From Plumapathes pennacea (Eukaryota > Cnidaria > Anthozoa > Antipatharia > Myriopathidae), in NCBI GenBank assembly GCA_964036295.1, contig OZ038468.1:2848501-2912500 (forward strand): 64,000 bases of DNA, in the 5' to 3' direction. Made by a program: the position numbers and the translations under genes. The notes beneath the pieces were generated by a model. The model searched no databases and had not been told where the DNA came from. It worked only from the letters and a program-made list of their open reading frames with translations. Every line of letters starts with the position of its first letter. Within the stretch, counting starts at the first letter, position 1. Below are positions 1,991-44,588 of this stretch, in pieces.

Positions 1991-2176
1991 AGATTTGCAG
2001 TTCAGTGTAGTGTTCATCAATTCTCAAGACCAAGAAACTGAATAGTAGGACTTGATACTCAACTATAAATTAGTTCAAGTTGTGCACAAGAAAAATGTAA
2101 ATAGCCATGGTGACAAACGCTGACCAACATATTTCCACTATGTACACTTGTTGTACCATAGCTTATTTCTGATTGG

Positions 2177-2543
2177 TCACATTGTTGCCAAATTCTGGAC
2201 ATCCTGGTTGGAAGCCTCACCCCGGGCAAACTCTCCCTGCGCTTTCACAAAGCTGGCTCCAGCCACGCGATAAATTCTGTTTATCTGCAGAGGAACAAAA
2301 GGAGATGATACCTGGGTGAAAAAGACGGCAGCAAACAAGAATGTTGGTAAGCAATGATGTACAGCCCTGGCCAAACGGACTCCAGTGTCAACCAACTCAA
2401 GTTGAACTAATGGCTATCACTTAGTCACACATCCACTTGTTGGTACACTCAGGGTGACTTTGGTCAAACTCAAATTTACACCAAGTTTTTCACCCACCCA
2501 CCCAACTTGGGTTGGCTTGTGTGTGTGAGTGTGTGTGTGTGTG

Positions 2544-2583
<40 letters not shown>

Positions 2584-5500
2584 TGGCCACCTACTACAGG
2601 TCCATATATTTCAGCACACCTGGGTCAACTTGGGAGGATATTTGGCCAGGGCTCGAATGTTCAAAGCAAGATTAGCTAATCCTGGATGAGCTCTAAACTG
2701 TGTTGTTATTTTTAAGCCTGAACGTCATAAACTTTCTCACAAAATGATTTCCTTGTTTTGTTTTAAACTTTGATAACTTTGTGATCAGGTCCACCTTTTC
2801 CTTAGCCTGCGTAGCTGGCGGTCTCATTTGGCGGAGAGACTGAGGGCGAGTGACAAAGACGGGTGAGGGGGAAAAGACCGTGGTCTTTTCCCCCGCCCCG
2901 TAATTTTGTCACTCGACCTCAGTCTCCCATCTGCCATCAGTACAAAATGGCGCCCGTGAACACTGTTCAACCGCATCGAATGAGACCGCCAGCTACGCAG
3001 GCTACCTTTTCCTCCAGTAGCAAAAACAACAACAACAACAACAACAACAACACAAAAAAATGGCCAATTTTATTATATAGACACGAGTGTTTTACTGGAG
3101 AATATACCGTTCGTAAAATCCATACGAAACTACATCCGGGACCCGAGTGGCGTATTTTCCATATCCTCACTAGTGGGGATATCGTTGGCATCATTTCTCG
3201 CTTTTGCACGGTTGTTTGTGCAATTTCTCGTAAAACACTCGTGCCTAATATAATAAAAAGAAAATTACACGGCGGCTTGAAGATATGGATTTTATTTTCG
3301 AGTGGTAAAAACAATATTTTACTCACTCGCGAAGCGCTCGTTCGTAAAATATTGTTTTTACCACTCGAAAATAAAATTCATATCTTCGCGCCACCGTGTA
3401 ATATCCTCTATATATTTTTTGTGCTTTTCACCACGGAGGGAAAGGAGGGCCTGAGTGTAGATTAGAGCTTAGAGTTACAATTGACTGGTGCATTAGCTTT
3501 TGATCCAACTCTGCAGTTTGTTGGCAAAAACGGTGAGAGAACGAAATTAGTTAAACCTGGATTAGATAAATTGAGCTTTGAAATTGGACAGTAAGTCAGA
3601 TGAACCAGAACAAACAAAAATAGAACCAACCGTTATCATCAAAGCAATGTCTGTGATGACACCAACAGTAAAAAGTATGGCTGATGCAAACATCATGCCT
3701 CCCACAGGATAACTGTTATGGATTACCGTTGTTGCATTGATAAATCCACTACAAAAAAAAACAAAAAATGGAAAAGACAACAGGTTAGATGCTGTACAAA
3801 GAGGTTATTACACGGGAAGGAGTGCAAATACAGTGAGGTATTTTTACGAGTCAGTTCTACATTTTTGAGCCTGCTTCAGGCAAGAAAAAATATAACTGAC
3901 TTGTAAAAATACAGCCATATTGCATGGCTTTTCGTGTAATAAATTGTCAATATACTACAATTGAAGCAGGGCAAATGTTCTCACCGCCAAAAAAATGGAT
4001 CAAAAAATGACACGTTGGTAAATTTGCTTGCAAAAATTGATCTCCTACAGTAAGCTAATAAACCAGTTGATCTGGTTCCTGACAAGTGCATTTACACTCC
4101 CATTTTTGCACTCGTTTTGGCCTTTATTTGCACTCGAAAATGTGGAGTCGTGTAATAAATGTCAGTGATCATGTATTTGTAAGTCCTGCACCACATGCAA
4201 CCCCACCCACCCCTTCCTTCCTCCCTCATTAAAAAATTACCGCTGTATGGAGCAGCTTCCTCTATCTTTCACTTGAGAGCAGACTAAAAGAATGATTCGT
4301 AATCATAACCTACAATAGCCCTACTGATAAAAGTTGGTTCCCGTATGAGCTGTTTGGAAAACAAGCACACCTGATTATAATCACCCTCCTACTAACCCAC
4401 CCCACCCCACACCTTCCCCCACCCCTCCCCCCCCCCAGTTTCAGCCTGCATGCATGAGACTCAGACATGATATTTGGCAGGTATAGTACTGTTTCTTTTG
4501 TATTTGCTTTTTTTTTTAACATAATGGTTATCATGTAATCACGGTACAACTTTGAGGAGGTTACAGTACATCAAGCTTACCAAGCTCCACATCCAGGTAT
4601 TCCTAAAGCAAAGAAAATATTGACTCCAATGTGAAGGAAGAAGATCAAAAAGAACACGATATAGTTGAATGAACTGTCATTCCTGTAGTCAGAGGGAAAA
4701 AAATGTTTAAGAACATTATCCAATGCACAAATAGAGGTTAACTATTACATGCATGCACAGCAATACAAATTTATCTTCCAGTGTTGTTGATATCTATGAG
4801 TTGTACTGTAGATATGTAAACACCAGAAGATATAAAATGTCTCCAAGTGGCCATGTAATGTTCTGGTTATTATATAGATATCAATGAAATATCCAGAACA
4901 AAGACTTATTTCACAACTTTTACTTCCTGTCAGAACATGCTGTCTTCAAAAATTGCACACACAGTAAAGTTATCCTTGTTATATTTCAAATGTGAAAATG
5001 TTGTATGTGATGAAGAAATCAGTTTTCAGAACTGAAGAAATCCTGGTACTTCATCAATATCTACAGTATATAATAAAGGCACATATATCATAGACTACTA
5101 AACTATTATATTATGATATACTATAAAGTCCCGGGGGGGGGGGGGGGTACTCCCTATGATCGGATATACGGGGAGGCTCCGCCCGAAAGGAGTGTATTTT
5201 TACGATCGAGGTATAAAAAAGGGTATAGGAAAATGACGTTTTTTAGGTATTTTAAAGGGTCAATAAAGAGGGTGGAGTGAGGAAATAATTTTGGTATTTT
5301 AAAGGGGTACTAAAAACGCCAGGAAAAACCGGGGAAAAAAAACGGCGGAAGACCGGAAACTCCGCCTTGTTAAAAGTGGGAAGCACCCCACCGTGGAATC
5401 GTCTGCCGGACGCTCGGGCCAGACCCCAGACCCCACGGCAGGTATAAAAAAGGGGTGCTTGTACTGGAGGTATATAAAAGGGTCCCAATTTTGCCCCCAG

Positions 5501-14500: not shown

Positions 14501-17500
14501 GGCGCAACTTGATCTTCTCCTTGTTCAGCTTCAAACCACTTTCCTGTGATCGCTGTAACAAACGTCGGAGATTCTCGTCATGATTCTTGACAGCAGCCTC
14601 GTGTGTCTCACCAAATCCACAGACAAGGAAATCGTCAGCTATGACCTCCACTCCAGGAAGTCCCTCGATGACTACATTCATGCGCTGCTGCCAGACTTCT
14701 GGTGCACTTTTGATGCCAAATGGCATCCTAAGCCAACGGTAACGGCCAAAAGGCGTTGCAAAAGTGGTCAGGTGACTGGACTGTTCGTCGAGTTTAACTT
14801 GCCAGAAACCAGTCTTGGCATCTAATACACTGAACACCTTCGCATTATGAAGCCTGGTCGCAACCTCTTCGATAGTGGGTAGTGGATAGTGCGACCGTTT
14901 GATGGCGGCATTTAGATCACGTGGATCTAAGCAAATGCGAATCTTGCCATTCTTCTTTGACACGATCACCATATTGGATACCCACGGTGTTGGTTCTGTG
15001 ACTGGTGCAATCACTGCATCATCAACCATTCTGTCCAACTCTTGTTTGACTGTGTCACGCTGCGCGACGGGGACTTTCCTGGGGGGATTGACTACAGGCT
15101 TCACTTTATCCTTCAACTGGATTGAGTACTCAGTTGGAAGTGTTCCCAATCCCTCAAATACATCAGGAAAGTCTCGCAACACACTGTCATTCATCATATC
15201 AGCTGGTGAAGTAGAGCTGTGTGTGTTGGTTGCTGGAATTGAGGTTGACTCAGCAGCGTTAACGGACGAAACTGAACCATTGTCACTCTCAACGACTTTG
15301 ATAAGACCCATACCAATGCAGGACTTCATTCCTAGCAAAGGTGTTGCTTGACGCTTCACGACAACGAAAACCAGGTCCTGTGCGTTTCCCTTGCGTTCAA
15401 CGCGTAGCTGGACTTTGCCAATTGCACGCTCGCTCGCTCCATTGTGCATGATTAGTCGAGTGTCCTTACCGGCCTTGTCTCCAGTTGTAATGTAGTCGGA
15501 GAGCGGAAGGATATTGCAAGAGGAACCCATATCCATCTGGAATGTGACTGGATAGTTGTGGCCTACGTTGAAGGATATAACTTGGCCCACCCCGTCTTTG
15601 TGACTACAAAACTCTTCGCCGTACGACTCGCTTTCAACTGAATTGATGTTTTTCTTTGATCGGCAGACTTTGGCGAAGTGGCCAACTTTACCACAATTAT
15701 GACACTCTTTGTCGGTGGCTCTGCACTCAGAGCGTTTACGAACGTGCTTGCTGCCACAAAACTTACACAGCGTTAGGTTTTCAGCCGTGTTTACTGCGAC
15801 AGGAGTGTGCCTAGTGAACTGGGCGACCTTCGCTTTGTTTGCTTGTGGATGGGCCATTCTTTTGGGCTTGTTTCTCTTGCTAACTGAATGGACCTTAGAC
15901 TCTTCCGATGCCATGTCCTTTGAGAACAGTTGTGTGGCGTAATGGCTTCGCAACACCTCAATCGCCTTGTCAAGTGTCAAGTCTTTCTTTCCGAGTAGTT
16001 TCTCACGAAGGAAGTCTCCTCGTACTCCGCTGACTAGTCTGTCTTGTATCATTTCGTCCTTTAACTGACCGAAGTTGCAGGTATCTGCCAGTTTCCTGAC
16101 TTGAGTTATGTATGCCTCGATGCTTTCGCCAGTTTCCTGGGCGCGTTTGTTGAACAAATATCGTTCGTAGATAATGTTAGTAGCTGGCATACATTTGTCC
16201 TCATACTTGGCTAAAACCAGATCTATGTTGCCATGTTCGTCGTCGGTGAGCTCGAAGGTTTCAAACATGTCTTGAGCTTCTTTGCCGATAACATTGAGCA
16301 GATGGGCAACACGAATCCTGCCATCTTTTTTGTCAATTTCCGCGGCGACTTCGTAAAAGTGCCAATCTCGCTTGAATTGACGCCAGTTTTCCCCCCTGTG
16401 GGACTTGTCCTGAAGGTTTAAAGAGTCCGGCGGCTTTGCTACATTTGCCTGCGCCATCTGACTGCTTTCACTGCTGACACCATGTAACGATACTTGTTTA
16501 ATGTGAAATAAACTGTAGTTTTACATCTCGAGGTACGCACGACTAATGATGAAAGAGCTCGTTCAAAGCTGAACACGTAATGACGTGTGCGTTGCTAGGC
16601 AACAGCAGAGGTTTACGTTACACACGCTAGTCAAGCAATTTGGCTTGACTTCAAAATAATGGGAACTTCAAATTAACCGAGTTCAAAATAGTGGGGTTCC
16701 ACTGTACCAACTTTTGTGTGGCCATAATGTACAATTTCATAGAGAAAACAACCTAGTTTCTGAAGGTTATCAATTTCAACAGATAATAACTTGATACAAG
16801 ATTTTGTCCCAAATAGCTCTCATACCAAGCTATGGAATGCCAAGTCTCCTTGCTGTAACAGTATGATACTGTACATTGTACTGGACAATAAATATCTAGT
16901 TTGAGCAAAACTTGGTGGGGGGAGGGGGGGGGGGGGGGGTGGTGTACACAGAGGAAGTTACAGGTACTAAGCTTCAACTCTTACCACAAAAGGTGATGCT
17001 GCTTCAGGAGGTGGAAGCATCGGCGTAGTCGTTGGCTGCAAAAAAAGTCAGGCAAACCATTAGACCCCAAAACTGATCAGAGGCAAACTACTCATACACA
17101 CTCAACTCTAAAATGAAGTTCAGAAAATGGTAGGTGGTCTTAAAGGTTGAGCGACTCTGCATTTTGAGCTTAGGAGCTAAAAAAGGGTCAGCCGGCAAGA
17201 GAAGCTGAGAAATGCGTGACATTTTTTTTTATGCACAATCGATTTTGACAGTTTGACTTCGAACACTTATTTCTAATCAGAGGCCACAATTAATCCAGCT
17301 TTCACTTCAATACTTACCTGTTTCTTTTATTAACTGAATGCATTTCTTTTATCAGGCTTTCCAGTATTCGTGCTCTATATCAAATATAAAATTGAAAGCG
17401 AGGAATGTAACACGATAGTTGTTTACAATATTATTGCGGTTTTGTTCACAGTGTGTTGACAGTCCATTTGTGACTGCAAACTCAATGCTCAGGACTATTT

Positions 17501-19396
17501 TGGTGTATTTTTCATTGCTATACAATGACCACTGCAAAACAAAGGCTACATGATCAAATGGAAGAAACATTTCAACAGGCATTGTGCAATCAGCAGAAGC
17601 ATTTTATGAGCCAACAGATGTCATGTACAGTGTAAAGCATAAATCACCATTGTTTTATGGCTAAAGCTCATTGTAGCTTTGGTTTCCTTTTTCGGCCTGT
17701 TATCTTCCCAGAATTATTTTGTGTCGCCACAGAAAGTTTCGTCGGGACTAAATACTTAGCGGCGACAGAGATATTTGCATTCCCGCAGCGGTATCCATCA
17801 AACATTTGTCTATGGCTATTCTCAAAGCTTCCGCGGTGAACTAAAGAACGCAAGCCAAAATCATTCCCTAAAATCCAGTTTATCCGTGCATGTTCCACAA
17901 AGCCAAACGGCATTGAGTTTGGATTAAATGTAGTTAACTTTTACACACAAGTAACGAGCAATTCACTGGCCACACTCGAGTTGTTTAACGAAGTCAATTA
18001 CGTCATTGCATGTCACGTGATAATATGAACCAATCACCGTGTGCTGATTCTTGACCCAGAAAAAAAAATCCATTTTTAAGCTCACGGGGCGTAGCACCTC
18101 CGCGAGTAACTAGCAAATAGCTTCACGTACGCCTTGTGGACCCTTGTTTGAATGCTGACATAGGTATCTTTGATATTCACTGGAGGCAGGCATCTTTCTT
18201 CATATGCTTTCATCAGTTTGGCATTGAAGTTGTTGTATGCAGCCTCTGGATTTGTGCAAGAATAAATCTCTTTATCATATGGCACTGATACTACGTACGC
18301 TACGATTGGTTAATTTACCGGTCCATACTTTCCTGTACGGACCGTAAATTGATTTTACGCACGTTCTGATTGGTCAATTTTACCGGTCCATAACTTACTG
18401 TACGGACCGCAAAATCAGTTTGCTAAACGTTTGTCATAAAAGGCCCAGAAGTGCAATGGGAAGTTTGATCTCTGTGGGATAACAACAGACAGGAAGTTGA
18501 ACAGTTCATTTAGCAAGCTAATCGCTTTCACCCGACGACCAAATTTACGACTGAAATCTCAGAAATAGAAACAACATTTCTGGACACAATCATTTACAAA
18601 TGAATATACCCTGGTAGAGTTCACTGTAAATTTAAAAGAGGCGTTTTAGCCCCAAAATGCAAATAGCCCCACTTTATAAAGGGGCTATTTTGAGCCACGA
18701 AGGGCAAATTTGAAATTTGTGGTCAAAATGGCCTTGTTGACATATTTCAATATTCTGCAAACAGAATGAAGAATAAGTAGAATGACGAAGCGTTTGTTTA
18801 GTCAAAGTTCTATCAAAATTAAAGGCGAAAATTCCTAAGGTTTTGTGAACTACATTATTATGCTGCTAATGTGATGGGTGGGCACCAATATACAAACAAC
18901 GAAAACATCGGAAAATATGCGGTTGCTCTTGTACCAAAAACCACAATGAATTTTGTGGTTAATCATTGTCCCGGTTGAATGTCAGATGCTGTGATGAAAT
19001 CAAACATACTGTATATCCAATGCAAAACATGCAAATTTAGCATTTACACAGTACTACATTAGAACAAAGTAGAAACAAAGTCCGTGTTTACAATGGTCGA
19101 AATCCACAGAAACAAGCAAATATTCAACTCATGTCTCCTGGAGCACTCAGGTTTGGTAGCCAGAGCTCCTTGCTCAAATGAAACCTGATTAAACTATAAA
19201 TTATTATTACAACACTCATGCATTTGCTTCTTAAAGGTTGAGGGACTGCATTTTGAGTTTAGGAGCGAAAGCGTTAGCCAGCAAGAAAAGCTGAGTAATA
19301 CGTGACATATCTCTTTATACACAGTTGATCTTCAAACACATATTTTTTAATCAGAGGCCACGATTAATCCAGCCTTCGCTTCAATACTTGTCTGTT

Positions 19397-19430
<34 letters not shown>

Positions 19431-22400
19431 GAATGCGTTTCTTCTATCAGGCGTTCGAGTATTCGTGCATTGTAACAAATAGAAAATAAAAGCCGAGGAG
19501 TGCTACACGAGACTTGTTTGCAATATTATTGCGGTTTTGTTCACAGCACGTTCCGTCCATTTGTGACTGCAAACTCAATGCTCAGGACTATTTCGATGTA
19601 TTTTTCATTTATAGCAGACAATGGCCATTGCGAAACAAAGGCTACGTGACCAAATGGAAGAAATATTTCATCAGGCAATGTACGATAAGCAGAAGCATTT
19701 TATGAGGCAACAGATGTCATGTACAGAGTAAAGCATAAAATAATATTGTCATTGTTTTACGGTTAAAGCTCATCATAGCTTTGGTTTCTGTTTTCGGTCT
19801 GCTATCTTTCCAGAAGTATTTCGTGTCGCCACAGAAAGTTTCGTCGGAACTAAATAACTAGCGGCGACAGAGTTATCACCAATCCAGTATCCATCAAATA
19901 ATCGAATCTCAAAGCTTCCGCGGTGAACTTTAGGAACACAAGCCAAAATCATTCCCTAAAATCCAGTTTATGCGTGCATGTTCCACAAAGCCAAACGGTG
20001 TTGAGTTTGAATGGGATACAATTAACTTTTACACACAAGCAACAAACAATTTAATAGCCCGCATCTCAAGTTGTTTGCGAGGTCAATTTACGTCATCGCA
20101 TATCATGTGAAAATGTGAACCACTCACAGTGTGTTGATTAGCGACCCAGAAAAAGAAAACAAACAAACAAACAAACAAACAAAAAACGAAAAAACGAAAA
20201 AAAAAAAAAAAAAAAAAAAAAGAATTTGCAAATTTAAGCTCGCCGCAACCGCTAGCAAAAGCGCTAACGGGAACTTAAACGCACAACAAATCCACAGAAA
20301 CAAACATCTCTGGAGCACTCAGGTTTCGTAGCCAAGACATTGTGTCAACAAAAACGATTCACTGGGATTTCAATTTTGAGGTCAAATATTTTAGCTTTTA
20401 ACTCGGGCCGGCTTATGATAATAATAAAAAAAAAAACTCACAAATACGCCAGGAGTCACATCAGAACAAGGAAAGGGTGGCAAAATATTTTTAATTGAAG
20501 ATCCTCCAGGTGTCGTCCTCTACAGCCTGCCCGCAGCCCGTCTTCCGTCGGGCAAGTTCTTTGGTTTGAACCGTCTCTTCAGAAAGACCCTTTATTCATA
20601 AGACTGTCGCGCATGCAAAAGTAAAGCTAAGGCCAATATGTTTCGCCTGTTTTTTTTTACTACCTATAAATTCAGCGTGAACGATTCGATAATTCTCCGG
20701 AACTCGAAGTATGCGCTAACTCAGATGTATTCCCGGGTCGGTCCGATTTTGGCGGGACGGCGCTAAATATTTTTCACGGCCGCAGTTCCAAGCTTAGTAG
20801 TATGAATGCTTGTATGTTGCACGTCTTTGGAATATGTTTTAAAGTTCACCAACATGCGAAGCAGCTAATATCTACCCTCTTTATGAGTACGAAAGAAATA
20901 ATTTCAAACGCTTGTAATTATGCGCGTTTCACATTGTGACCCCTGCCCACGGTTTATACAGACCCGTAACAATCGCTCTACTAATTGACAAAGTTGACAA
21001 AAGAAGCCCCGTTGGATTTGTCATCAATCGGTAGTAACCAGGAGGCCCTGCTGCGAAGGAGAAAATGTGCACTTCTGGCTCGTGATGTGCGAAATGGCTA
21101 CTGCCTTGTTTGAAGACTCCCTCAACCAGCTTCTCTTAAAAGCAATTAGAATAAGAAACAATCGAATTGTTTAGCGTATATTTAGGGGTCATATTTTTCG
21201 AGACACCCTCGACGAGCCGCCTGAAAGCTTTGTGTAGGAGAGGAAAAAGAGGCCGAGAAGCTCGGAAAACATGTCGGAATAAATAAGCCACAGTTTTCTC
21301 TCCAAAAGCTTGGGCGAGCCGCCTGAAAGCTTTGTTTAGGAAAGGAAAACCAGGCCGACAATAAAATACGGAACAATCATGGCGCAACTTCATTACTTGC
21401 CCGGCGAAGAATTTGAAGCATACCGCAACCGCTAGCAAATGCGCTAACGGGAACTTAAACGCACAACAAATCCACAGAAACAAACATCTCTGGAGCACTC
21501 GGGTTTCGTAGCCAAGACATTGTGTCAACAAAAACGATTCATTGGGATTTCAATTTTGAGGTCAAATATTTTAGCTTTTAACTCGGGCCGGCTTATAAAA
21601 AGAAAAAGAAAAAAAAAAAAAAAAAAAACAAAAACCCACAAATACGCCAAAAGTCACATCAGAACAAGGAAAGGGTGGCAAAATATTTTTAATTGAAGAT
21701 CCTCCAGGTGTCGTCCTCTACAGCCTGCCCGCAGCCCGTCTTCCGTCGGGCAAGTTCTTTGGTTTGAACCGTCTCTTCAGAAAGACCCTTTATTCATAAG
21801 ACTGTCGCGCATGCAAAAGTAAAGCTAAGGCCAATATGTTTCGCCTGTTTTTTTTACTACCTATAAATTCAGCGTGAACGATTCAATAATTCTCCGGAAC
21901 TCGAAGTATGCGGGTAGCTCTAGTCGAAACCCTTCCGAACGGGGCACATAAGTTGACTTCACTCGGCAGTGGTTTCAATTTTTTGGAGAAAACACCATCA
22001 CGAAGGAATCACCCTTACTCACCTTCTGGTCTTTTTGCGGATGCTACGGATCTGACGGTACTCTAACTCAGATATATTCCCGGGTCGGTCCGATTTTGGC
22101 GGGACGGCGCTAAATATTTTTCACGGCCGCAGTTCCAAGCTTAGTAGTATGAATGTTTGTATGTTGCACGTCTTTGGAATTTGTTTTAAAGTTCACCAAC
22201 ATGCGAAGCAGCTAATATACCCTCTTTATGAGTACGAAAGAAATAATTTCAAACGCTTGTAATTATGCGCGTTTCACATTGTGACCCCTGCCCACGGTTT
22301 ATACAGACTCGTAACAATCGCTCTACTAATTGACAAAGTTGACAAAAGAAGCCCCGTTGGATTTGTCATTAATCGGTAGCAACCAGGAGGCCCTGCTGCG

Positions 22401-22956
22401 AAGGAGAAAATGTGCACTTCTGGCTCGTGATGTGCGAAATGGCTACTGCCTTGTTTGAAGTCTCCCTCAACCAGCTTCTCTTAAAAGCAATTAGAATAAG
22501 AAACAATCGAATTGTTTAGCGTATATTTAGGGGTCATATTTTTCGAGACACCCTCGACGAGCCGCCTGAAAGCTTTGTGTAGGAGAGGAAAAAGAGGCCG
22601 AGAAGCTCGGAAAACATGTCGGAATAAATAAGCCACAGTTTTCTCTCCAAAAGCTTGGGCGAGCCGCCTGAAAGCTTTGTTTAGGAAAGGAAAACCAGGC
22701 CGACAATAAAATACGGAACAATCATGGCGCAACTTCATTACTTGCCCGGCGAAGAATTTGAAGCATACCGCAACCGCTAGCAAATGCGCTAACGGGAACT
22801 TAAAAGCACAACAAATCCACAGAAACAAACATCCCTGGAGCACTCGGGTTTCGTAGCCAAGACATTGTGTCAACAAAAACGATTCATTGGGATTTCAATT
22901 TTGAGGTCAAATATTTTAGCTTTTAACTCGGGCCGGCTTATAAAAAGAAAAAGAAA

Positions 22957-22988
<32 letters not shown>

Positions 22989-25900
22989 AAAAACAAAACA
23001 AAAACCCACAAATACGCCAGAAGTCACATCAGAACAAGGAAAGGGTGGCAAAATATTTTTAATTGAAGATCCTCCAGGTGTCGTCCTCTACAGCCTGCCC
23101 GCAGCCCGTCTTCCGTCGGGCAAGTTCTTTGGTTTGAACCGTCTCTTCAGAAAGACCCTTTATTCATAAGACTGTCGCGCATGCAAAAGTAAAGCTAAGG
23201 CCAATATGTTTCGCCTGTTTTTTTACTACCTATAAATTCAGCGTGAACGATTCAATAATTCTCCGGAACTCGAAGTATGCGCTAACTCAGATGTATTCCC
23301 GGGTCGGTCCGATTTTGGCGGGACGGCGCTAAATATTTTTCACGGCCGCAGTTCCAAGCTTAGTAGTATGAATGCTTGTATGTTGCACGTCTTCGGAATT
23401 TGTTTTAAAGTTCACCAACATGCGAAGCAGCTAATACCTACCCTCTTTATGAGTACGAAAGAAATAATTTCAAACGCTTGTAATTATGCGCGTTTCACAT
23501 TGTGACCCCTGCCCACGGTTTATACAGACTCGTAACAATCGCTCTACTAATTGACAAAGTTGACAAAAGAAGCCCCGTTGAATTTGTCATCAATCGGTAG
23601 CAACCAGGAGGCCCTGCTGCGAAGGAGAAAATGTGCACTTCTGGCTCGTGATGTGCGAAATGGCTACTGCCTTGTTTGAAGACTCCCTCAACCAGCTTCT
23701 CTTAAAAGCAATTAGAATAAGAAACAATCGAATTGTTTAGCGTATATTTAGGGGTCATATTTTTCGAGACACCCTCGACGAGCCGCCTGAAAGCTTTGTG
23801 TAGGAGAGGAAAAATAGGCCGAGAAGCTCGGAAAACATGTCGGAATAAATAAGCCACAGTTTTCTCTCCAAAAGCTTGGGCGAGCCGCCTGAAACCTTTA
23901 TGTAGGAAAGGAAAACCAGGCCGACAATAAAATACGGAACAATCATGGCGCAACTTCATTACTTGCCCGGCGAAGAATTTGAAGCATATCGAAAGGCGGG
24001 AAAAAAAGCAAACCACAAATAGTATATCTTCACTGTCTCAGGAGCCAAGCAGATACTCCAAAAGCGGCTGTTTCAGCAAAAACGTCGTCCTTCTCGTGTC
24101 CGGAAACCATAAATAAAAAATTCGGATATCAAACGATTAATTTTGTTTGATGTGATCTCAAACATAGGCAAATTCGAACAATTTCGCACCGCAGCTTGCA
24201 CAAAACATCTCAGAACCTGAAACATGCAGCTGCCATCTTGGAAATGTTCCATGATGCTTTGCTTTACTTGTACCCAGGCCTGCGGTTTTTGAGCTATTTG
24301 CTATTGCCGTGAGCTGTTTTGTTTTGCCGTGACAATTGTGTGCCACCGTAGAAAATCTCAGTTTATCTGAACGAACTCTTCTTCTCCGGCAGCCAACTCT
24401 TGCAGAACTAAATATAATCCCGTATCCAGACCCTCCGATGTCTTACGCGCATGCCTGACGAAATCAAACAAGGCTCTGGGACTAATCCGTATTCTATATA
24501 CTATCTATATTCGTATTTATGCTCGTGGGTAAATGGCAAAGCCAGATTTATTTTTGGTTTTTGGCAGCTTTTACTGTTATGTATGGGGTTTGAAGTGAAT
24601 AAAACACCACTATATCGTTGAATGGAAACATTAAGTTTTAAAAAGTCAGACCGTGGAAGGATGTTCCGTTGCACGAACGGATTTTTTCCACCCATTGATC
24701 GACTGATTTTATCGATACTGCAAATACAGTAACTCTGTTGGCCTGATCAGGGTTGACATGCTCACGATGTACATATGAAGAATGCCGTACACATAATCCG
24801 TGCACGTACTTGCGCAAATACAAAGCAGCTGCACAGAAAACAAATTACCCGGCTGTAATAAATCTGAGTTGGACTTAACGAAACGAAAGCATATGGCACG
24901 AGTTTAAATATATAACTTGACATTTCACTTCGTCGCTCTCAGCTGGTTCTTTAGGGATAGAAATGTGCTTCAAAGTTGCTGAAGACATAATGTGCCGATC
25001 GCGACGGGAGATAATGCTTCAAACTTTGAAGTGCTCGATCGCAAAGACCGCGTTTAACAACGACAGCCGGGGCCAGAATTTGGTTGCAAAGCCACCGTTT
25101 GGTCAAGTTGCAATCTGGAGAACTGCTTCATCTTATCTTTGTTGCCTTATGCAGATGCAATCAACTGGGTCCCCGCAAACTTCATCGCCGCTGTTTAAGT
25201 TCCGCCCCCTCACCCAAGTATAAAAATGGGGTAGGTATGGTTGCTCAGGAACAGAAAGAACAGGTTTCATGAAGGATTTTTATTCTTGAGCCACATTCTG
25301 CTACTGTATATCCTATTCTATATTCCTCCTTTCCTGATAACACCTTTTAATTTCTACAAAGAAATTACCGTTAATGTTGTGAATGAAACAGTAAGAATTA
25401 CACTCCCAAGTCTGCTGTTAAATTCTAGAGCATCCCCTTCACTGCCAAAACTAAATTCAATTCAACCGAGAAGTATGCTAACTCCTGAACTGTCACGTAA
25501 ATGCTAGAGTAAAAGCTCTTAATATGTACTCACACACATTCACTGCCCACATTGCTGTTAAGCAGTTCAGATTGTTTAGCATCTTACAGTAAGTCTAATT
25601 TGGACCCAAAAAATAAACATGAAGGGTCAAATAAAGCCACAGTAAAGGAGCAACTTTAACATCTTCTTTCCTAGGCTGAAGGGAAGACTGCCCAGGAATG
25701 ACTACGCAACCTTAAAATTTTGCCATGCACAATTTTGTAATGTACAGTAAATGAAATGCCTACGCATACTCTACTGTACTGGTGCTGTTGGGAAACATGG
25801 CATAACCTCATTTTCCTAAATATTACATTTTACTTCACTTCTTCATAACTAAAGCCACACATTTGAACTTATTAAGTAAACATTAACTACTGGTTGAAAA

Positions 25901-28900: not shown

Positions 28901-31900
28901 TCTTTTACGGCGTTCCATTACCCTCATCAACACCTAGTTGATACACCAGTTTGTCTTCTGCCACGCCGACGCAGTCAACCTAGTTCTCTTAAGAGCTGGT
29001 ATTACATTGTCCTATCCCACAGAAACTGCTACAAACAGTACCTCCAAGTTGCATCCTTTGTAGTTCCTGTTCTTTTTTCTGCAATTCTGCTGCCTTTCTC
29101 TCAAGTTCCTATTAAAAGCAATCACAGACTCATAGCATCCCTTTTTCCATACAACACAAAAAGTTCAAAATCACTGGGATATTTCTAGTACTACAAAAGC
29201 AACTTCATCAAATCTCTTTTCTGTAAAGATGGTTTACACAGTGGCCATTTTGGATGGCAGGCAAAACAAAATCTTTTTTCATAACAATAGCATTTCTTTT
29301 CCAGGGGAATCGAATTCTATTGTTCCTGCCATCTAACATGGCTGCTGTCCTAACCTCTATTATGTATGCAGTATACTGAACAGAAGTATGTATGAACTAC
29401 AGAACTGGTTATCATTACAAACTATACAGTACCTCTTGTCGCTTTCTGAGGTTCTCCTGTTCTTCTTCAACCTGAAGAAGAAAGCCAAAATTACATTGTA
29501 TGGAACAAGTACATAGTATACATGTAAATATACCATAAACCCCCAACCCTCTAAATACTAAAATATATTCAATAATTAGCCCCTCCCCTCCAACAAAGTC
29601 CATGGACTGCAGGCTTAACGTCCAATACACTCAAACCCTGCTATTTCAAAGTCCCACGGGACATGAAAAAAGTTCGAAACAGCAGGGGTTCAAAACAACC
29701 ATGCTAGTCAAACTAATCCAATACAACTATTTCAAGTTTGAAATGGCAGGGTTCTACACACTTCCGTGTGGCCATACTGTACAATTTCATAGATAGCCTG
29801 CGTAGCTGGCGGTCTTATTCGATGCAGTTGAACGGTGTTCACGGGCGCCATTTTGTACTGATGGCAGAAGGGAGACTGAGGTCAAGTGACAAAATTACGG
29901 GGCGGGGGAAAAGACCGCCTGCCAGAAGACTGTGGGTTTTCGATATCCGCCCACTTGTGACAGGCCAATCAGCAATGGGCTGTCAGTTGTCAAATTTGCT
30001 GACACCATCTGATACATGATATGTGTTTTTCACAGCAAACTTTCCATGGCGAGCTGATTTACGAAAATACTGTATACTAAAATTACGAATCCAAAACGAA
30101 AGACATCATAAGTCATTCGGGTCACATGAAGACGGATTTTGCTCCAGTCACATGGCTTCGGCAGCTCTTGCTTTTGTTCGTTTGTAAAATCACACCTTCG
30201 CCAACCCGCTGTGGTTTATCAAGGCCCGACTACAGCTCGACAACAGGGAACGCTTTACAACTCGTACGAGACTCTCACAAGAGCAAAGGAGTGAGAGCGT
30301 TTTATCGCGGACTTACGGCGTCATGCGTTGGAATATCGGAAACTGTCATCCACATCATAATCTACGAACACATCAAGGACGCTTTCTCGGCAAAGCAGTA
30401 CACCGACTGTGGCGTATTTGTAAAACAAACGCAAAACCGTTTCCAGTTAACCTGCCCGTTTAAATGCTCCTTGGCAAGCACGAACAAAGTAAAAATTAGG
30501 CTTTTTTCAAGGCCAACGGCAAAATGGCGGCAACATCCTTCCTAGACAACAAATCTTTTACGGCGGTTTCCTGTTCTTTTTTCAGGACGATCTCACGGTC
30601 GCAACCTCTTAGATTTAACTTTTTCAAAGCTTCTTCCACAAAATCCGCCATCTCTTGTGCGTTTCTCTCACGCCGCTCACTTGATTGACAGTTTATTATT
30701 CTCAGCCAATCAGAATACTGCGTGCACTGGTGCACGCAGCCAGTCGAAAACCCACAGTCTTCGGGCAGGCGGTCTTTTCCCCCGCCCCCACCCCCCTCCC
30801 CCCGCCCCGTAATTTTGTCACTTGACCTCAGTCTCCCTTCTGCCATCAGTACAAAATGGCGCCCGTGAACACCGTTCAACCGCATCGAGTGAGACCGCCA
30901 GCTACGCAGGCTATTTCATAGAGAAAATCAAGCTATTGCCTAAAAGTCACCTATTTTAACAGATAATAACTTGATACAAGAATTTGTCCCAAACAGCTTG
31001 CATAATAGCAAGCTATCAAATACTGTACATTGTACTGGACAAAAAATATCTAGTTTGAGCAAAACTTGGTGGGGTGGGGGGGGGGGGAATGGGGGGGGGG
31101 GGGGTGGTCGACAGAGAAAATACAGTACTAAGCTTCAACTCTTACCACATAAGGTGGGGGTGGCTGCTGATGGGGTTCCAATACAGCTGGCTGCTGAGGT
31201 GATGCTGCTTTGGGAGGTGGAAGCACCGGCGTAGTCGTTGGCTGCAAAAAAAGTCAGGCAAACCATTAGACCCCAAAACTGATCAGAGGCAAACTACTCA
31301 TGCACACTCAACTCTAAAATTATAAAGTTCAGAAAATGGTAGGTGATCTAAGTTGGGTTTCAAGCTCAGATTAGAAATTATCCTAACAATTAACACTCTT
31401 CCCAGTGCATACATCAGGCCAAGCCTTAGCATTTTTCTGTATGCCTTGAAAATCTGTTCTCGGTACATACATTCCATTTATCTTCCCCTCATGTGAAGAG
31501 TACACTGTCAGAGTACAGTAAAATATAAATTGTATTTTTTTATTTTTTTGCAAATTCTAACTGCTCTGGCCTTTATCAGTTGGGAAATGTCATGACTAAA
31601 CTAAGAAATATCGAACTACAAACCACAAAGAGCATTTTTTTTTATGTCACTGGATAAACACTGTTCACAAATTCAGAAAGTGAGCACATACAGTATACTA
31701 TAATATAACATTACTATTGCTTCCAAATTACATTAGCTCTGACACAGCCCTTACAAAAATCACCAGATGGTCAAAATGTCCTGCTCTCTTTGACCTGATG
31801 TGTCACCTGGTCTAAACTGTACTTTAACTCCCAGTATCAAAATGCAGATTCTCCTAACCTCCTTATATGGGAATATACTAGTTATGTAGTGAGAATTTAT

Positions 31901-34378: not shown

Positions 34379-35027
34379 TAGTAGTACATTTGTCAAGACT
34401 TCCTGCCAACGGGGTTTCGTTAGTAGTATTTTTGTAGCTGCAATCTATGTTTTATTTCTCCGTATGATCGCAAAGTGTTACGCGTTAGAGATTACGTCCA
34501 GGTTTAAAGAATCCTAAACGACTTTATTAAAAGGTTTCTACATCATTCTCAACATATACTAAGTATCCTAGCTTCAGTCCCAGAATTAGTTCCGTAACTC
34601 TTGAGGACGTTAAGATATTGCCCAAAATGTACTTGAGTGTATGATTTTTCGTAAATGTACACGGAGAGCGTGCTACAAGTCCTATTAAACAACTAATTTG
34701 CAATATTTCACCTCAACTCAATCAAATCACTTTTTACCCTTCTGAGTTGTTACAGTGATTCTACAAACCATTAACAAAGAACCGAATGAGCGACATGTGA
34801 GAATTTATCATTCAATCAGCTATCACTCCAGTAAGTTATAAATCCTAAATAAAACCTAGTACTGTATGATAACAATACAAGTATACAGTACAAGTATCTC
34901 TGGCAATAAAATAAAAGAGAAATATGCACTGTTCATAACAGTATCCATGCTACTTTCTCGAGATACATTTTTATAAAATAACTATGATACTACGCGCGCC
35001 CTGATTGGCTAAATAACCGTGTTAGAT

Positions 35028-35398
35028 ATAGAGATTACTTCATGGAAAGTGCGCGCGTACGGTTTTTATTCACGAGTTGTGAAGTATCATAAAACGAACG
35101 AGCGAGGCTTTGCGAGCGAGTGAGTTTTATGATACGAAACAACGAGTGAATAAAAACTGTACAAAGCACTTTCCATGATGTTTTCTGTTTATTATATACA
35201 TACTGAGACATTTATGATGGGACCGGGAAACCCTTTAAAAGTAGTGAAAAATCGTCGTTCGCAGCTTGTGATTGGACGAATGATTTTTTCACGTGTGAAA
35301 AGCGTTGTTCGCGGCCTCTCATTGGCTAGAACTCATTTGCGTACGAAATTTTACGATATGGCTTTTTCGTGAGTATGTCTCAGTATGTATATAATAAT
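35028..35398. mobile_element. Copy-B-specific composite foldback insertion
   Basis: Absent at the matching point in copy A (about 1427). The left part (35037-35179) is a hairpin with arms CATGGAAAGTGC and GCACTTTCCATG. The right part (about 35190-35398) has inverted ends TATTATATACATACTGAGACA. It contains only short ORFs. Confidence 0.7.
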
Positions 35399-35479
35399 AG
35401 AGTATATTACACGCTGACGCGATACGCGATGCTTTTTATTTGACCAATTATTTCATAAAAGAAATATATAACGTGTTCC

Positions 35480-35625
35480 CGTGTAATATAGCCTCATCTA
35501 ACCACTTAGGAAGTTGGGAGAACACTCGAGTAATGCCGGAAACCACTCGGCGGCCTCGTGGTTTCCTTACGCTACTCTCGTGTTCTCCCAACTTCCCGCG
35601 TGTTTAGATGAGGCTATATTACACG
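35480..35625. repeat. Foldback MITE, copy B orthologue of 1503-1637
   Basis: Same arms as the copy-A hairpin; the loop has about ten extra bases (CACTCGGCGG region). No coding content. Confidence 0.8.
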
Positions 35626-36194
35626 GTGACGCGTTATATATTTCTTAAGTGTGACATTGCGGAAATACATTTTTCAAGCATGTGGTCACCATATTTTTGA
35701 GCCAGTGATAATGCAAAAAACTGTGGATTCAAGTTCATGGCCCGGTTTTTCAAAGCACGATTAGGCTAATCCTGGATTAGGTCTAAACTTTCATGTCATT
35801 TATATGCCTGAAAATGTGAAGGTTTCGTTCACAACAACTTCCTTTATGCGTTTTTAAGCTGGAACAAGCTTTATAGTCCATCTTCAAACAAAACTCTGCG
35901 GTTTATTGGCAGAGGGGTCGAGAGAAAGAATTTCGTTAATCCTGGATTAGCTTAGTCGGCTTTCGAAAAACCGGGCCCAGATTTGCAGTTCAGTGTAGTG
36001 TTCATCAATTCTCAAGACCAAGAAACTGAATAGTAGGACTTGATACTCAACTATAAATTAGTTCAAGTTGTGTACAAGAAAAATGATGTTTACACACAAT
36101 GTTAAATTTTACCTCAAATTAGAAGTTAAATAGCCATGGTGACAAACGCTGACCAACATAATTCCACGATGTACACTTAATGTCATACCATAGC

Positions 36195-36569
36195 TTAGTT
36201 CTGATTGGCCACGGCAGTGTGGAAACCCGCTGCTGCCGCATTCTGGACATGCTGGTTGGAGGCCACACCCCGGGTAAACTCTCCCTGCGCTTTCACAAAG
36301 CTGGCTCCAGCCACGCGATAAATTCTGTTTATCTGCAGAGGAACAAAAGGAGATGATACCTGGATGAAAAAGACGGCAGCAAACAAGAATGTTCGTAAGC
36401 AATGCTGTACAGCCCTGGCCAAAAGGACTCCAGTGTCAACCAACTCAAGTTGAACTAATGGGTATCACTTAGTCACACATCCACTTGTTGGTACACTCAG
36501 GGTGACTTTGGTCAAACTCAAATTTACACCAAGTTTTTCACCCACCCACCCAACTTGGGTTGGCTTGTG

Positions 36570-36615
<46 letters not shown>

Positions 36616-37094
36616 TGGCCACCTACTACAGGTCCATATATTTCAGCACACCTGGGTCAACTTGGGAGGATATTTGGCCAGGGCTCGAATGTTCAAAGCA
36701 AGATTAGCTAATCCTGGATGAGGTCTAAACTCTGTTGTCATTTTTAAGCCTGAAAGTCATAAACTTTCTCACAAAATGATTTCCTTGTTTTGTTTTAAAC
36801 TTTGATAACTTTGTGATCAGGTCCACCCTTTCCTTAGCCTGCGTAGCTGGCGGTCTCATTTGGCGGAGAGACTGAGAGCGAGCGACAAAGACGGGCGATG
36901 GGGGGGGGGGGGGGGGGGGGGGTTGGGGCGCGGTCTTTCCCCCCTCCTCCTGCCCCGTAATTTTGTCACTCGACTTCAGTCTCCCATCTGCCATCAGTAC
37001 AAAATGGCGCCCAGTGAACACTGTTCAACTGCATCGAATGAGACCGCCAGCTACGCAGGCTACCTTTTCCTCCAGTGGCAACAACAGCAACAAT

Positions 37095-37146
<52 letters not shown>

Positions 37147-40100
37147 CAAAAAACGGCCAATTATATTTTTTGTGCTTTTCACTACGGAGGGAAATAAAGG
37201 CCTGAGTGTAGGTTAGAGCTTAGAGTTACAATTTGACTGGTGCATTAGCTTTTGATCCAACTCTGCAGTTTGTTGGCAAAAACGGTGAGAGAACGAAATT
37301 AGTTAAACCTGGATTAGATAAATTGAGCTTTGAAATTGGACAGTAAGTCAGATGAACCAGAACAAACAAAAATAGAACCAACCTTTATCATGAAAGCAAT
37401 GTCTGTGATGACACCAACAGTAAAAAGTATGGCTGATGCAAACATCATGCCGCCCACAGGATAACTGTTATGGATTACCGTTGTTGCATTGATAAATCCA
37501 CTACAAAAACAAAAAACAAAAAACAAAAAAACAAAAAACAAAAAACAAAAAACAAAAAACAAAATGGAAAAGACAACAGGTTAGATGCTGTACAAAGAGG
37601 TTATTACACGGGAAGGAGTGCAAATACAGTGAAGTATTTTTACGAGTCCGTTCTACATTTTTGAGCCTGCTTCAGGCAAGAAAAAATATAACTCATAACT
37701 TGTAAAAATACAGCCATATTGCATGACTTTTCGTGTAATAAATTGTTAATATACTACAATTGAAGCAGGGCAAATGTTCTCACCGCCAAAAAAAATGGAT
37801 CAAAAAATGACACGTTGGTAAATTTGCTTGCAAAAAATTGATCTCCTACAGTAAGCTAATAAACCAGTTGATCTGGTTCCTGACAAGTGCATTTACACTC
37901 CCATTTTTGCACTCGTTTTGGCCTTTATTTGCACTCGAAAATGTGGAGTCATGTAATAAATGTCAGTAATCATGTATTTGTAAGTCCTGCACCACATGCA
38001 ACCCCTCCCACCCCTTCCTTCCTCCCTCATTAAAAAATTACCGCTGCATGGAGCAGCTTCCTCTATCTTTCACTTGAGAGCAGACTAAAAGAATGATTCG
38101 TAATCATAACCTACAATAGCCCTACTGATAAAAGTTGGTTCCTGTATGAGTTGTTTGGAAAACAAGCACACCTGATTATAAGCACCCTCCTACTAACCCA
38201 CCCCACCCCTCACCTTCCCCCCACCCCTCCCCCCAGTTTCAGCCTGCATGCATGAGACACATGAGATTTGGCAGGTATGCTACTGTTTCTTTTGTATTTG
38301 CTTTTTTTTTAACATAATGGTTATCATGTAATCACAGTACAACTTTGAGGAGGTTACAGTACATCAAGCTTACCAAGCTCCATATCCAGGTACTCCAAAA
38401 GCATAGAAAATATTGATTCCAATGTGAAGGAAGAAGATCACAAAGAACACGATATAGCTGAATGAGCTGTCATTCCTATAGTCAGAGGGAAAAAAATGTT
38501 TAAGAACATTATCCAATGCACAAATAGAGGTTAACTATTACATGCATGCACAGCAATACAAATTTGTCTGAGCACAGTACTTACTTGAGTGCATTGTAAG
38601 CAGGGCGGTACCAAAACAAAAATGACAGGGGAACGTTTGCAACTAAGTACAAGAGAGACAAGCCAAATGTCCTTCCCCCAAGATACTCGTCATCATTGTC
38701 AACAAGTAACGCAAATGCCGAAAGGAAATTTAAAAACAAAACGAAACTGTAGGCTGAAAGAGAAAGAAACAAGAATACAAGCTGTAAAATCACAAGGCTT
38801 GTGGGATTAAGCCACATTGTGGCTGCATAATCAGAATACTGCACAATGTGCTGGTAAGCTGAAGCCACAGAATAGGGCACAAAGGCCACGGTGGTAGCAG
38901 GCACCCCTTGATCTACCAAAAAATAAAAATAAAAAAAGTTGTGAGCCCAAGTAATAGCAGCTATGGACAGCTGTTTCGTTCACATTGTGCTTACCAGCAC
39001 ATTGTGCAGTATTCTGAAACAAGAATACACTTTACCATTTTATTTTTATCAGCAGCAAGTTGTAAAAAGCAATCCAGTGTATGTGACGTCAAATCACAAC
39101 TGAAATATTGGTAACCAGGTTGCAGGAACACAGACAAAGCTCACTTTCCTTCATCATATGACAATGAACTTTGGTGATCTCTTAATTTAGGGTGTTCACT
39201 ACCAATTTGGTAGAAAAAAATAAAATAACTATTGATCGATTTGATTGTAGTAGCACTTTAACAACAACAATTGAAGAAATTTACCTTTCCACCTAAAGAA
39301 CAGAAATTTGCAAGTCTTCTGGTACTCTATAGGAATGTCAATTCTAATGTCGTGAAAGAAGCAAGGCTTGCACGGACAACTGGAGGGTAGAGGGGGGAAG
39401 TTGTTTTCTCTGTAACCTACAGAACAATAATGACAATTCAGTGATACAGACCTGAAAATTCATACAGTGTTCAAAGTACATGCATAGAATATACTGTGCA
39501 GAGTGGCAAACTTCATAGAGGATATTACACCATGATACATATACATATACATATACATATGAATTCTATTTTAGAGTGGTAAAAACAATAGTTTATGAAT
39601 GAGGGCTGCGTGAGTGTAATTTTCTTTTTACTATATATATAGACAAGAATGTTTTACAATAAATGCACAAACAACTGTGCAAAACAGAAAATAATGCCAT
39701 AGCTATCCTCACTTAAGAATAAGGAAAATTCGCCACTCAGGTACCGGATGTAGTTTCATATGGATTTTACGCATGGTGTATTTTCCAGTTAACCACTTGT
39801 CTCTATATAATAAAGGTGCTTTATGTCCAAAAGTAATTTTCCCTTATAATGCCTCTTGACTGCTCTCAAGTCTCCCTTCGGACTGTAGATTGACTTCAAG
39901 CAATAGAAAGTTTTATAATATTTCTAGTTGCCCGGCCCAGAATTTACCTGCCCAACCAAAAGTTTTGGTTGCCCCGGGCAAGCGGGCAACCGTTAATGTC
40001 GAGCACTGAGTTTACCGTAATCATACAGTAAAGTACATGATTATTTTATACAGTCTAACAAGCAGAATCCTGTAAAAAATCCTGTAAATCACAGAACTTA

Positions 40101-43100
40101 AAGTGCTTCTTGTTCTTATAATACTAACAGTATCTATTCTTTTCACACAATGCTCAATTTTACAGTGGAAAATCTTTCGTTTTTTGCTGTTGGCTCACTG
40201 AAGTGTATATAATAATCACCACTTCTCAAACTTTTGTCCCACAGAAACTGCTGCAGTCCTACTATTAATTGTACCTCCAAATTGCATCCTCTGTAATTCT
40301 TGTTCTTTCCTCTGCAATTCTGCTGCTACTCTCTCAAGTTCCTATAATCAATCAATCAATCATAGATTTTAAAGCATCTGTTTTTCTATGTGACACAAAA
40401 AGTTCAGAATCAATCTACTGGATGCATCTATCACTACAAATTAAAGTAATTTTGTCAATAGCAGAGCACAACTAGAAAGTAGTTAGTCAGTAAGTTCGAT
40501 AGACCGGTAAAATTAGTTGAGTAATGTTAGTTTGTTACAAAAAGTTCAGAATCAATCTACTCAATATTTCTAGTACTACAAAAGCAGTTTTGTCAAATCT
40601 CCCCTCTGTATTGTAGATGGTATACTGTTCAGCCATATGTATGAACTACAGAACTGGTTACCATAGAAACTATACAGTATTTAGTACCTCTTGTCGCCTT
40701 CCGAGGTTTTCATGTTCTTCTTTAACCTGCAGGAGAAAGCCATAATTTGTACAGAACAAATAGCTGTACATAGTCAAACTACATAGTACAAATCCATAAA
40801 CATCCCACCCTCTACTGCACAGACAAGTTAAAATCCATTCAATAATTAACCCCTCCCCTCACACAAAGTCCATGGACTTACATGCTGCAGGTTTATCATC
40901 CAAATACAGTTCAACCATGCCATTTTCAAATCCCATGGGACATCATAGAAAGTTCGAAATAGCAGGTTTCGAAATATCCACGCTAGTCAAGCAATTTGGC
41001 TTGACTTCAAAATAATGGGGACTTCAAATTAACCGAGTTCAAAATAGTGGGGTTCCACTGTACCAACTTCTGTGTGGCCATAATGTACAATTTCATAGAG
41101 AAAACCAAGCTAAGTTTCTGAAGGTTATCAATTTCAACAGATAATAACTTGATACAAGATTTTGTCCCAAATAGCTCTCATACCAAGCTATGGAATGCCA
41201 AGTCTCCTTGCTGTAACAGTATGATACTTACTGGGCAATAAATATCTAGTTTGAGCAAAACTTGGTGGGGGGAGGAGAGGGGGGGGGGGGGGGGGGTGTA
41301 CACAGAGGAAGTTACAGTACTAAGCTTCAACTCTTACCACATAAGGTAATGCTGCTTCAGGAGGTGGAGGGACCAGTGTTGTCTGCAAAAAAGTCAGGCA
41401 AACCATTAGGCCCCAAAACTGAAAATGGTAGGTGATCTTAGTTGGGTTTCAAGCTCAGATTAGCAATTATCCTAACAACACTCTTCCCAGTGCATACATC
41501 AGGCCAAGCCTTATCACTTACATGTATGCCTTGAAAATCTGTTTTCAGTACTTACAATCTATTGTTTTTCTCCTCATGTGACACTGTCAGAGTATGTACA
41601 ATAATTATTGTACAACTAGTGCAGGTGTTTTTTGTTCGTTTTCTTTTTTGCAATTTCTAACTGTCTGTTTTTATCAGTTAGGAAGCATCATGACTGGACC
41701 AATAAATATCAAACTACAAACCACAAAAAGCATTTTTTTATGTTACTGGATGAACACTGTCCACAAATTCAGAAAGTGAGGACATATACTATAATATAAC
41801 ATTACTATTGCTTCCAAATTACATTTTAGCTCTGACACAACCCTTACAAATGTCCTGCTCTCTTTGACCTGATGTGTCACCTGGTCTAAACTGTACTTTA
41901 TCTCCCAGTATCAAAATGCAGATTCTCCTAACCTCTTAATACGGAAATATCTGAGTTATGTAGTGAGAATTTATAGATTAATCAGCTATCATCTGAGCAA
42001 GGTATCAAAAGCCATGTTTTCCTTACTATATGATACCCCTGGTAAGAAACTGGCTTCTATGTCGGCGGTTTGGACTAAACAGTCGTTCAGCCCATCTCAT
42101 TAATGTTCCCCCTCTAGGTGGCAAAAACTACTGAGGGGGGAGGAGCATGAAGTGTTATCCATATAAAAGCTGCCGTGGTATTTGGTTTCCGTTTTCGGCC
42201 TGTTATCTTCCCAGAAGTATTTTGTGTCGCCACAGAAAGTTTTGTCGGGACTTAATACTCAGCGACGACAGAGATATTTGCATTCCCGCAGCAGTATCCA
42301 TCAAACATTTGTCTATGGCTATTCTCAAAGCTTCCGCAGTGAACTAAAGAACGCAAGCCAAAATCGTTCCCTAAAATCCAGTTTATCCCTGCATGTTCCA
42401 CAAAGCCAAACGGCACTGAGTTTGGATTAAATGCAGTTAACTTTTACACACAAGTAACGAGCAATTCACTGGCCACACTTGAGTTGTTTAACGAAGTCAA
42501 TTACGTCATTGCATGTCACATGATAATATGAACCAATCACCATGTGCTGATTCTTGACCAAGAAAAAAATATATATATATTTTTCACAATGCACGAGAAC
42601 TCTGTATTTCAAAATCACTGACTGGGACAAAAACACCGTGGTGATTTGAGGACATTTAATTTGCTGGAAGAAACCTAAATGCTCCACGAGGAGGCAGGAA
42701 AATTAAGCAGTGAGTTTTGAATAATATAACTTTCAACGATGTGTCGGTCGCAGTTTGTGATGAAATGATTTTCTTTTAGTGCCATTTTGCCTTCTACATT
42801 ATTGCACGTGTAAGAAACTTATTCAAAAGAATAAAAAATACTCTGAGTTACAAAGCAGTTTCTTCTGGAAAGCGATAAGACTGCAGTTTTTTTAAATCTT
42901 TAGTGAGTGAGAAAGGGCGAGTTCGAGTCATTCACCGAATAAAGTTCATTGCAGTGTCGTTGTTTGACACATGCTGTAGCAGTGTGGGCAGACCTTGTTT
43001 CCATTTGATCGGGAAAGATCCACTGACTTGGTTAAAATAATAGTTGACAAACGTTATCCAACTTGATGGAAATGCTGTCGTTTATTATCGTTGTCCAAAA

Positions 43101-44313: not shown

Positions 44314-44354
44314 AGATGCGACGGCTGTTCAAATTTGCTCTCCTGTGAAGCAGA

Positions 44355-44588
44355 AAACTTACGGTGGCCCACAACTGTCACAGCAAAAGAACAGCTCACG
44401 GCAAGAGCAACTTGCTCAAAAGCTGCAGGCCTGGGCACAAGTAAAGCAAAGCATCATGGAACATTTCCAAGAAGGCAGCTGCATGTTTCAGGTTCTGAGA
44501 TGTTTTGTGCAAGCTGCGGTTCGGAATTGTTCGAATTTGCCTATGGTTGAGATCACATCAAACAAAATTAATCGTTTGATATCCAAAC
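44355..44588 (+). pseudogene. BED/CGGBP-like zinc-finger fragment, partner of 24126-24350
   Basis: Near-copy of 24126-24350 in opposite orientation, starting immediately beyond the SCAMP-B 5' flank. It reads TSKAKHHGTFPRRQLHV, then SGSEMFCASCG. A frame break follows at the expected histidine helix. Confidence 0.4.

Follow-up and report, generated by a model that had tools for sequence, protein, structure and literature searches.

A 64,000-nucleotide stretch of the Plumapathes pennacea genome (contig OZ038468.1; hereafter the window) contains an insertion in which sequence resembling a mitochondrial carrier gene and sequence resembling a RecQ-like helicase gene lie between inverted ends, and the locus raises the question of whether a transposon has captured pieces of two host genes in an animal. 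Plants provide well-documented examples of gene capture by cut-and-paste transposons. In the preliminary description, which was made from the letters of the window, the insertion was read as a Pack-MULE-like element, that is, a Mutator-like element holding broken fragments of both genes. Here we consider what the insertion is, where each of its pieces came from and to which class of transposon it belongs.

The insertion, its empty sites and its surroundings

The element occupies positions 29794-30913 of the window and has long inverted ends (TIRs) together with an exact 9-bp target duplication (TSD), TTTCATAGA, on both sides (Table 1). Its inverted arms form an outer pair (29793-29908/30799-30914, 116 nt, 97% identical) and an inner pair (29899-29943/30744-30788, 45 nt, 98%), and the 1120-bp element with long inverted ends and an exact 9-bp duplication was thus confirmed as first described. 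When its flanks were joined at one copy of the TSD, they aligned without any insert to 40766-41347 (72%) and to 16710-16995 (76%) of the window. Both of these paralogous stretches carry one single TACAATTTCATAGAGAAAA, and therefore the two paralogous empty sites that had been proposed do exist. The window holds many duplicated stretches (797-4776, 6170-12142, 16623-24000 and 34404-44357; 82-98% identical among those longer than 300 bp), and it was apparently tandem duplication that supplied the empty sites.

Table 1. Features of the window element, its empty sites and two short elements with the same ends (window coordinates)
Feature	Position	Strand	Remarks
Left TSD	29785..29793	.	TTTCATAGA
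Left TIR	29794..29943	+	begins TAGCCTGCGTAGCTGGCGG; G-rich part ~20 bp shorter than subfamily consensus
Left end of long element (TIR and stretch preceding DUF6589 gene)	29794..30056	+	ends just past ATGGCGAGCTG
Filler	30057..30089	.	33 bp; 36 bp in B consensus
Captured fragment of single-ORF SLC25-type mitochondrial carrier gene	30090..30376	+	84% to L050 3759-4054
RecQ-like helicase gene remnant (from the transposon itself)	30377..30651	-	from start codon inward; Walker A frameshift; internal deletion
Right TIR	30744..30913	-	
Right TSD	30914..30922	.	TTTCATAGA
Paralogous empty site	16735..16743	+	single TTTCATAGA
Paralogous empty site	41091..41099	+	single TTTCATAGA
Short element, ends as in window element	2803..3004	.	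202 bp; TSD CCTTTTCCT, exact
Short element, ends as in window element	36835..37062	.	228 bp; TSD CCCTTTCCT/CCTTTTCCT, 8/9

A mobile family and the source of its carrier piece

The genome searched was the 290-Mb assembly of 24 contigs (written C1, C2 and so on below). A 22-bp terminus matched it at 259 places (129 forward, 130 reverse), and the reversed control gave no match. Forty stretches around these matches were retrieved, 35 of which had both ends. An exact 9-bp TSD flanks 31 of these 35 two-ended loci, and two more (L012 and L029) agree at 8 of 9 positions; the exceptions are L043, with an exact 8-bp duplication, and L028, with only 4 of 9. The copies have distinct TSDs, a Pack-TIR feature indicating repeated transposition. 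The window element is a member of a mobile multicopy family with tens of copies, and the search for its termini and alignment of its copies, suggested in the preliminary description, confirmed the family. The assembly-made hairpin that had been named there as a possible refutation was not seen, as the same ends recur across the genome. Carrier sequence is present in 34 of the 35 two-ended loci, with L048 (C1:29990396-29991647) as the sole exception. L048 was considered as a second cargo element and rejected; its interior is bounded by other inverted ends (GTGACTAAACTGGATACTCC) and looks like a different transposon nested inside window-family ends.

The copies form two subfamilies. In subfamily A, 20 aligned copies lie 0.27-5.18% from their consensus, 14 of them at 0.27-1.15%, and in subfamily B, 10 aligned copies lie at 0.78-1.72%. 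A tree of 32 rows (21 of A, 10 of B including L053, and the joined ends of the long element described below), which was built without copies that are interrupted or shortened (L030, L037, L043 and L045 among them), separated A from B fully (100/100) and placed the window copy among the young A copies. L030, L037 and L035/L036 were also tried as autonomous elements and rejected, being long only through inserts that interrupt copies. L035/L036 (C4:21002412-21012751) is a B copy split by ~9 kb of sequence, part of which consists of long arrays that translate as repeats of three residues (I-E-P / G-S-I / Y-R-A). L037 (C3:9577999-9583807), another B copy, is interrupted by a ~4.5-kb insert, which contains a minus-strand ORF of 1095 codons that, by eye, resembles a retroelement polyprotein. 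Elsewhere, L056 (C8:8250367-8250987) retains both the carrier and the helicase piece of the family interior but no recognisable terminus, and six plus-strand exact termini lie within 71 kb at C1:1817762-1888679, with no exact partner among the matches listed; the latter are possibly a duplicated half element.

The mitochondrial carrier fragment, first noticed on the plus strand of the window, proved to be real. Its 74-aa reading in the A consensus matches Mito_carr (2.4e-15), and the donor search that had been suggested led to two open frames on C1, L050 and L051, which are the closest matches beyond the family. The A-consensus segment is 88% identical to L050 and 87% to L051, and the window copy, which has a 14-bp deletion relative to its subfamily consensus, is 84% and 83% identical, respectively. 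The L050 gene (C1:26141428-26142411) is a single ORF, open for 328 codons, and the donor gene would be expected to group near SLC25A33/36. Subfamily B retains ~50 bp of extra carrier sequence that matches L050 and not L051, which makes the L050 gene lineage the likely donor. Judged from these alignments, the carrier piece was indeed captured, its origin being an SLC25-type gene on C1 with a single ORF. Pack-TIRs are characterised by non-transposon host sequence that lies between TIRs and has its parental copy elsewhere in the genome, and the carrier is the only piece here to show this.

To map the breakpoints of the carrier piece, all 9 kb of L050 were used as query, and matches were obtained in 42 of the fetched element loci. 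On the donor, the left boundary falls at 4052-4054 in 41 of the 42, the remaining locus, L032, keeping just 40 bp; the right boundary is at 3759 in 21 loci and at 3705-3713 in 19, and with this query none of the 42 loci matches the donor past 4060 or under 3700. A separate count gave 46 loci with carrier matches, or 43 excluding L050-L052, two of these over 34-40 bp only; its query was trimmed at the breakpoints, and for this reason the breakpoint claim was drawn from the whole-L050 query. Two divergent copies that resemble A, L028 and L029, retain the longer carrier form. One donor breakpoint, constant within 2 bp in 41 of 42 copies, points to one capture event, which we infer to have preceded the split of A and B, with later trimming in A.

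A small search for further cargo covered 20 terminus sites, namely the C1:38517692 pair and 19 of the 24 plus-strand matches without an exact partner that were counted by eye among ~100 listed of the 259 terminus matches. Nine of these sites had a partner end whose TSD agreed at 7 or more of 9 positions (four of them exactly), giving elements of 131-795 bp, and 11 of the 20 had no partner end of that quality within the 1.6 kb examined. Interiors were compared for just the two elements longer than 320 bp; across the 20 sites, carrier sequence was found in the 795-bp element L072 only, which is a B derivative.

The helicase piece and a 7.2-kb relative

A long element at C6:16679416-16686576 (7161 bp) has the TIRs of the window family (157/171 bp, 92%) and the TSD GGCAGATTG on both sides, and it is inserted in a repeat whose neighbouring units carry GGCAGATTGAAT uninterrupted. 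At one end it encodes a RecQ-like helicase (DEAD 4.9e-18, Helicase_C 5.8e-14, phmmer similarity to WRN/RECQ1/BLM), and at the other end, on the opposite strand, DUF6589 (6.6e-21), the protein being spread in this copy across several ORFs; a zf-AD-like N-terminal stretch beside DUF6589 scored 1e-5 and 26.1 bits, under the Pfam cut-off of 28 bits. The start of the helicase and the DUF6589 gene each lie just within a TIR, at opposite ends of the element. The left end of the window family corresponds to the DUF6589 end of this element (92%) up to the start codon, and the right end corresponds to its helicase end (79-81%). On the left of the window copy, the blast match stops at 30042 and identity picks up again, by eye, to 30056; ATGGCGAGCTG is common to both elements and marks the start of the reading frame in the long one. 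On the right, window 30380-30423 corresponds to long-element 6565-6608, and window 30422-30913 to 6713-7161. The filler has no significant match in the sequences with which it was compared, the long element and loci L050/L051. At the sequence level, the window element is the two ends of the long element with its middle replaced by a carrier-gene piece.

Because the same TIRs bound the helicase/DUF6589 element on C6 and the right ends match, the helicase piece is transposon sequence, and its reading as a captured host gene was rejected on the content of the C6 element. The resemblance to RecQ helicases itself holds at the level of the family, as the longer piece in subfamily B gives a DEAD match (3.5e-6); the minus-strand ORF of the window copy has no significant Pfam match (best 0.14, to an unrelated family). 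The proposal of pieces from two host genes is therefore reduced to one, the carrier captured from the C1 gene, with the RecQ piece being the transposon's own helicase. The break that had been placed exactly at the Walker A loop was likewise rejected as a meaningful breakpoint, since it is a frameshift belonging to subfamily A: in the B consensus Walker A is intact and the reading continues beyond it (PTGFGKSLIF...VVSPLKSLIGDQ), and in the window copy the similarity continues past Walker A in another frame (GLEKSLIFTLFVLAKE). Carrier and helicase fragments lying side by side at a normal locus, which had been named as evidence against a capture, were not seen; the donor is on C1, and the helicase is in transposons on C6 and C2.

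The C2 transposon is a second long copy, 97.8% identical over 6.7 kb and without the helicase-side end; one stop interrupts its helicase, and its zf-AD ORF has indels and many stops. A genome DNA search found no third long copy, only divergent relatives. Between the two long copies, dN/dS was 0.83-1.46 in four of six ORFs and 0.18 and 0.34 in the other two, with just 5-16 differences in each, and on these differences no clear coding constraint is visible in the six ORFs. DUF6589 (PF20231) has 44 matches in the genome, most of them with no nearby match to the helicase query, which comprised the N-terminus only. Beyond the two long copies, helicase and DUF6589 occur together at two places on C8 only. 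One is a divergent relative, C8:6192159-6194211, which matches both parts in the same order at 71-73%, and the other is a pair at C8:6170297-6171301(+)/6173315(-), recognised by comparing two match lists by eye. Two matches on one strand of C3, to a MULE domain (C3:8573120-8573395) and to DUF6589 (C3:8575496-8576446), are also separated by ~2 kb.

Class and origin of the element

According to the accessible part of one source, AcademH transposons encode a helicase and have TSDs of 9 or 10 bp, those of AcademX being 3 or 4 bp, and this split in TSD length is tied to helicase versus nuclease (PMC10045372); in another, RecQ helicase is named as an Academ component (PMC3627910). Both AcademH features are found here: the long element encodes a helicase, which its Pfam domains and phmmer similarity show to be RecQ-like, and the TSD is of the described length (exact 9 bp at 31 of 35 two-ended loci, and 9 bp in the long element). 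Their fit to the published description is what AcademH membership rests on, and the best name for the window element would be a multicopy gene-capturing non-autonomous AcademH element, classed by helicase and TSD. The window copy differs from AcademH in being without both genes and in carrying a piece of a host carrier gene, the likeness being one of helicase and TSD alone.

It is improbable that these elements form a superfamily apart from AcademH, with a RecQ helicase, a DUF6589 transposase and a 9-bp TSD, and merely resemble it. Some weight is lent to this by the AcademH assignment being drawn from helicase and TSD and not from the transposase, by the finding of no mention of DUF6589 in the literature searched, and by KolobokH, another superfamily that also carries RecQ helicases. 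However, it is for AcademH that a helicase together with a TSD of 9 or 10 bp has been published, whereas the Kolobok TSD is TTAA. In the accessible part of their description, KolobokH and Kolobok-1_CCri are, like the long element, DNA transposons with a RecQ helicase, once on the complementary strand, but they have a 4-bp TTAA TSD and fungi or a red alga as hosts (PMC9587614). The TTAA duplication was not found in the window family.

The Pack-MULE reading, in which a Mutator-like element carries captured pieces of two host genes, is very unlikely and has been largely refuted. MULEs have TSDs of 8-11 bp and long TIRs, both of which the window family shows, and MULE-type domains are present in the genome (11 PF10551 matches); the TSD length is not diagnostic, because it is shared with AcademH. 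Against this reading, the helicase is the family's own gene, as the C6 element shows, PF10551 is absent from the seven long-element ORFs scanned (three at E<=0.001, four at E<=1), and the terminus occurs at none of the eight MULE-domain loci examined of the 11 (<=2 mismatches, 3.2-3.3 kb each). The autonomous MULE with the same termini that the preliminary description had proposed to look for was not found in these eight loci and seven ORFs, and a Mutator origin was rejected, as PF10551 showed no link to the termini there; the RecQ-like helicase and the 9-bp TSD are instead the published AcademH signature. It is also very unlikely that the helicase of the C6 element is host-derived, a whole RecQ gene having been taken up by a TIR element. 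Although the two long copies show no visible constraint over their few differences and the helicase/DUF6589 coupling is confirmed at few places, both genes lie just inside a TIR, the coupling recurs in the divergent C8 relative and the second C8 pair, and a helicase is a known AcademH component.

Considering all of the above, we think it highly probable that the window family is a non-autonomous transposon of the AcademH kind, which arose once by replacement of its middle, was mobilised in trans and was recently amplified. In the model that we propose, the middle of a 7.2-kb helicase/DUF6589 transposon would have been lost, once, and the gap filled by ~350 bp from the single-ORF mitochondrial carrier gene and ~35 bp of filler. 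The replacement may have occurred by gap repair, with a switch to the carrier gene after excision of the long element, or by template switching at a replication fork; gap-filling and FoSTeST models have both been described for animal Pack-TIRs (PMC8277862). A source for the filler was not found in the long element or in loci L050/L051, and the right junction shows no visible microhomology, so the repair mechanism is offered as a conjecture. The chimera may then have been mobilised in trans by the proteins of the long element, as its TIRs and TSD length are shared with that element, and DUF6589 would be the transposase. Division into subfamilies A and B would have followed, and then a recent amplification to tens of copies with 9-bp TSDs.

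No account of gene capture by Academ elements was found in the literature searched, the coverage of which was incomplete and did not include the defining AcademH paper, reportedly that of Kojima from 2020. Such capture does not appear in the accessible parts of PMC10799480, PMC12730594, PMC8290104 and PMC8616336, and gene capture by helicase-bearing transposons in fungi is a speculation in the first of these. In the accessible part of a survey of Pack-TIRs in 100 animals, the elements were mostly hAT and TcMariner and mostly single-copy, with four multicopy cases; multicopy animal Pack-TIRs spread by transposition, no Pack-MULE was reported in the 100 reference genomes, and a word search of the main text found no Academ element (PMC8277862). 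Like these animal Pack-TIRs (PMC8277862), the window family is a non-autonomous DNA transposon that has TSDs and holds host sequence between its TIRs; it differs from them in that one and the same captured segment is matched by 42 fetched loci. Ssk-FB4 of Drosophila also has a 9-10 bp TSD, long TIRs, a captured gene and several insertions; in contrast, nearly the whole gene was captured, the copies are few, and it is a Pack-MULE according to its authors (PMC8277862).

Since the captured piece, its likely donor, the long transposon with the ends that were kept, the intermediate subfamilies and the empty sites are all present, the successive steps by which a Pack-type element was born can be followed here. 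The locus also carries a caution, in that a transposon's own helicase may be mistaken for a captured host gene. We consider the chances even that this is a high-copy gene-capturing AcademH family in an animal, unlike the surveyed Pack-TIRs, whose long relative reveals DUF6589 (PF20231) as the AcademH transposase. The long element points to DUF6589 as a possible transposase and, if this is true, an orphan Pfam family would gain a function.
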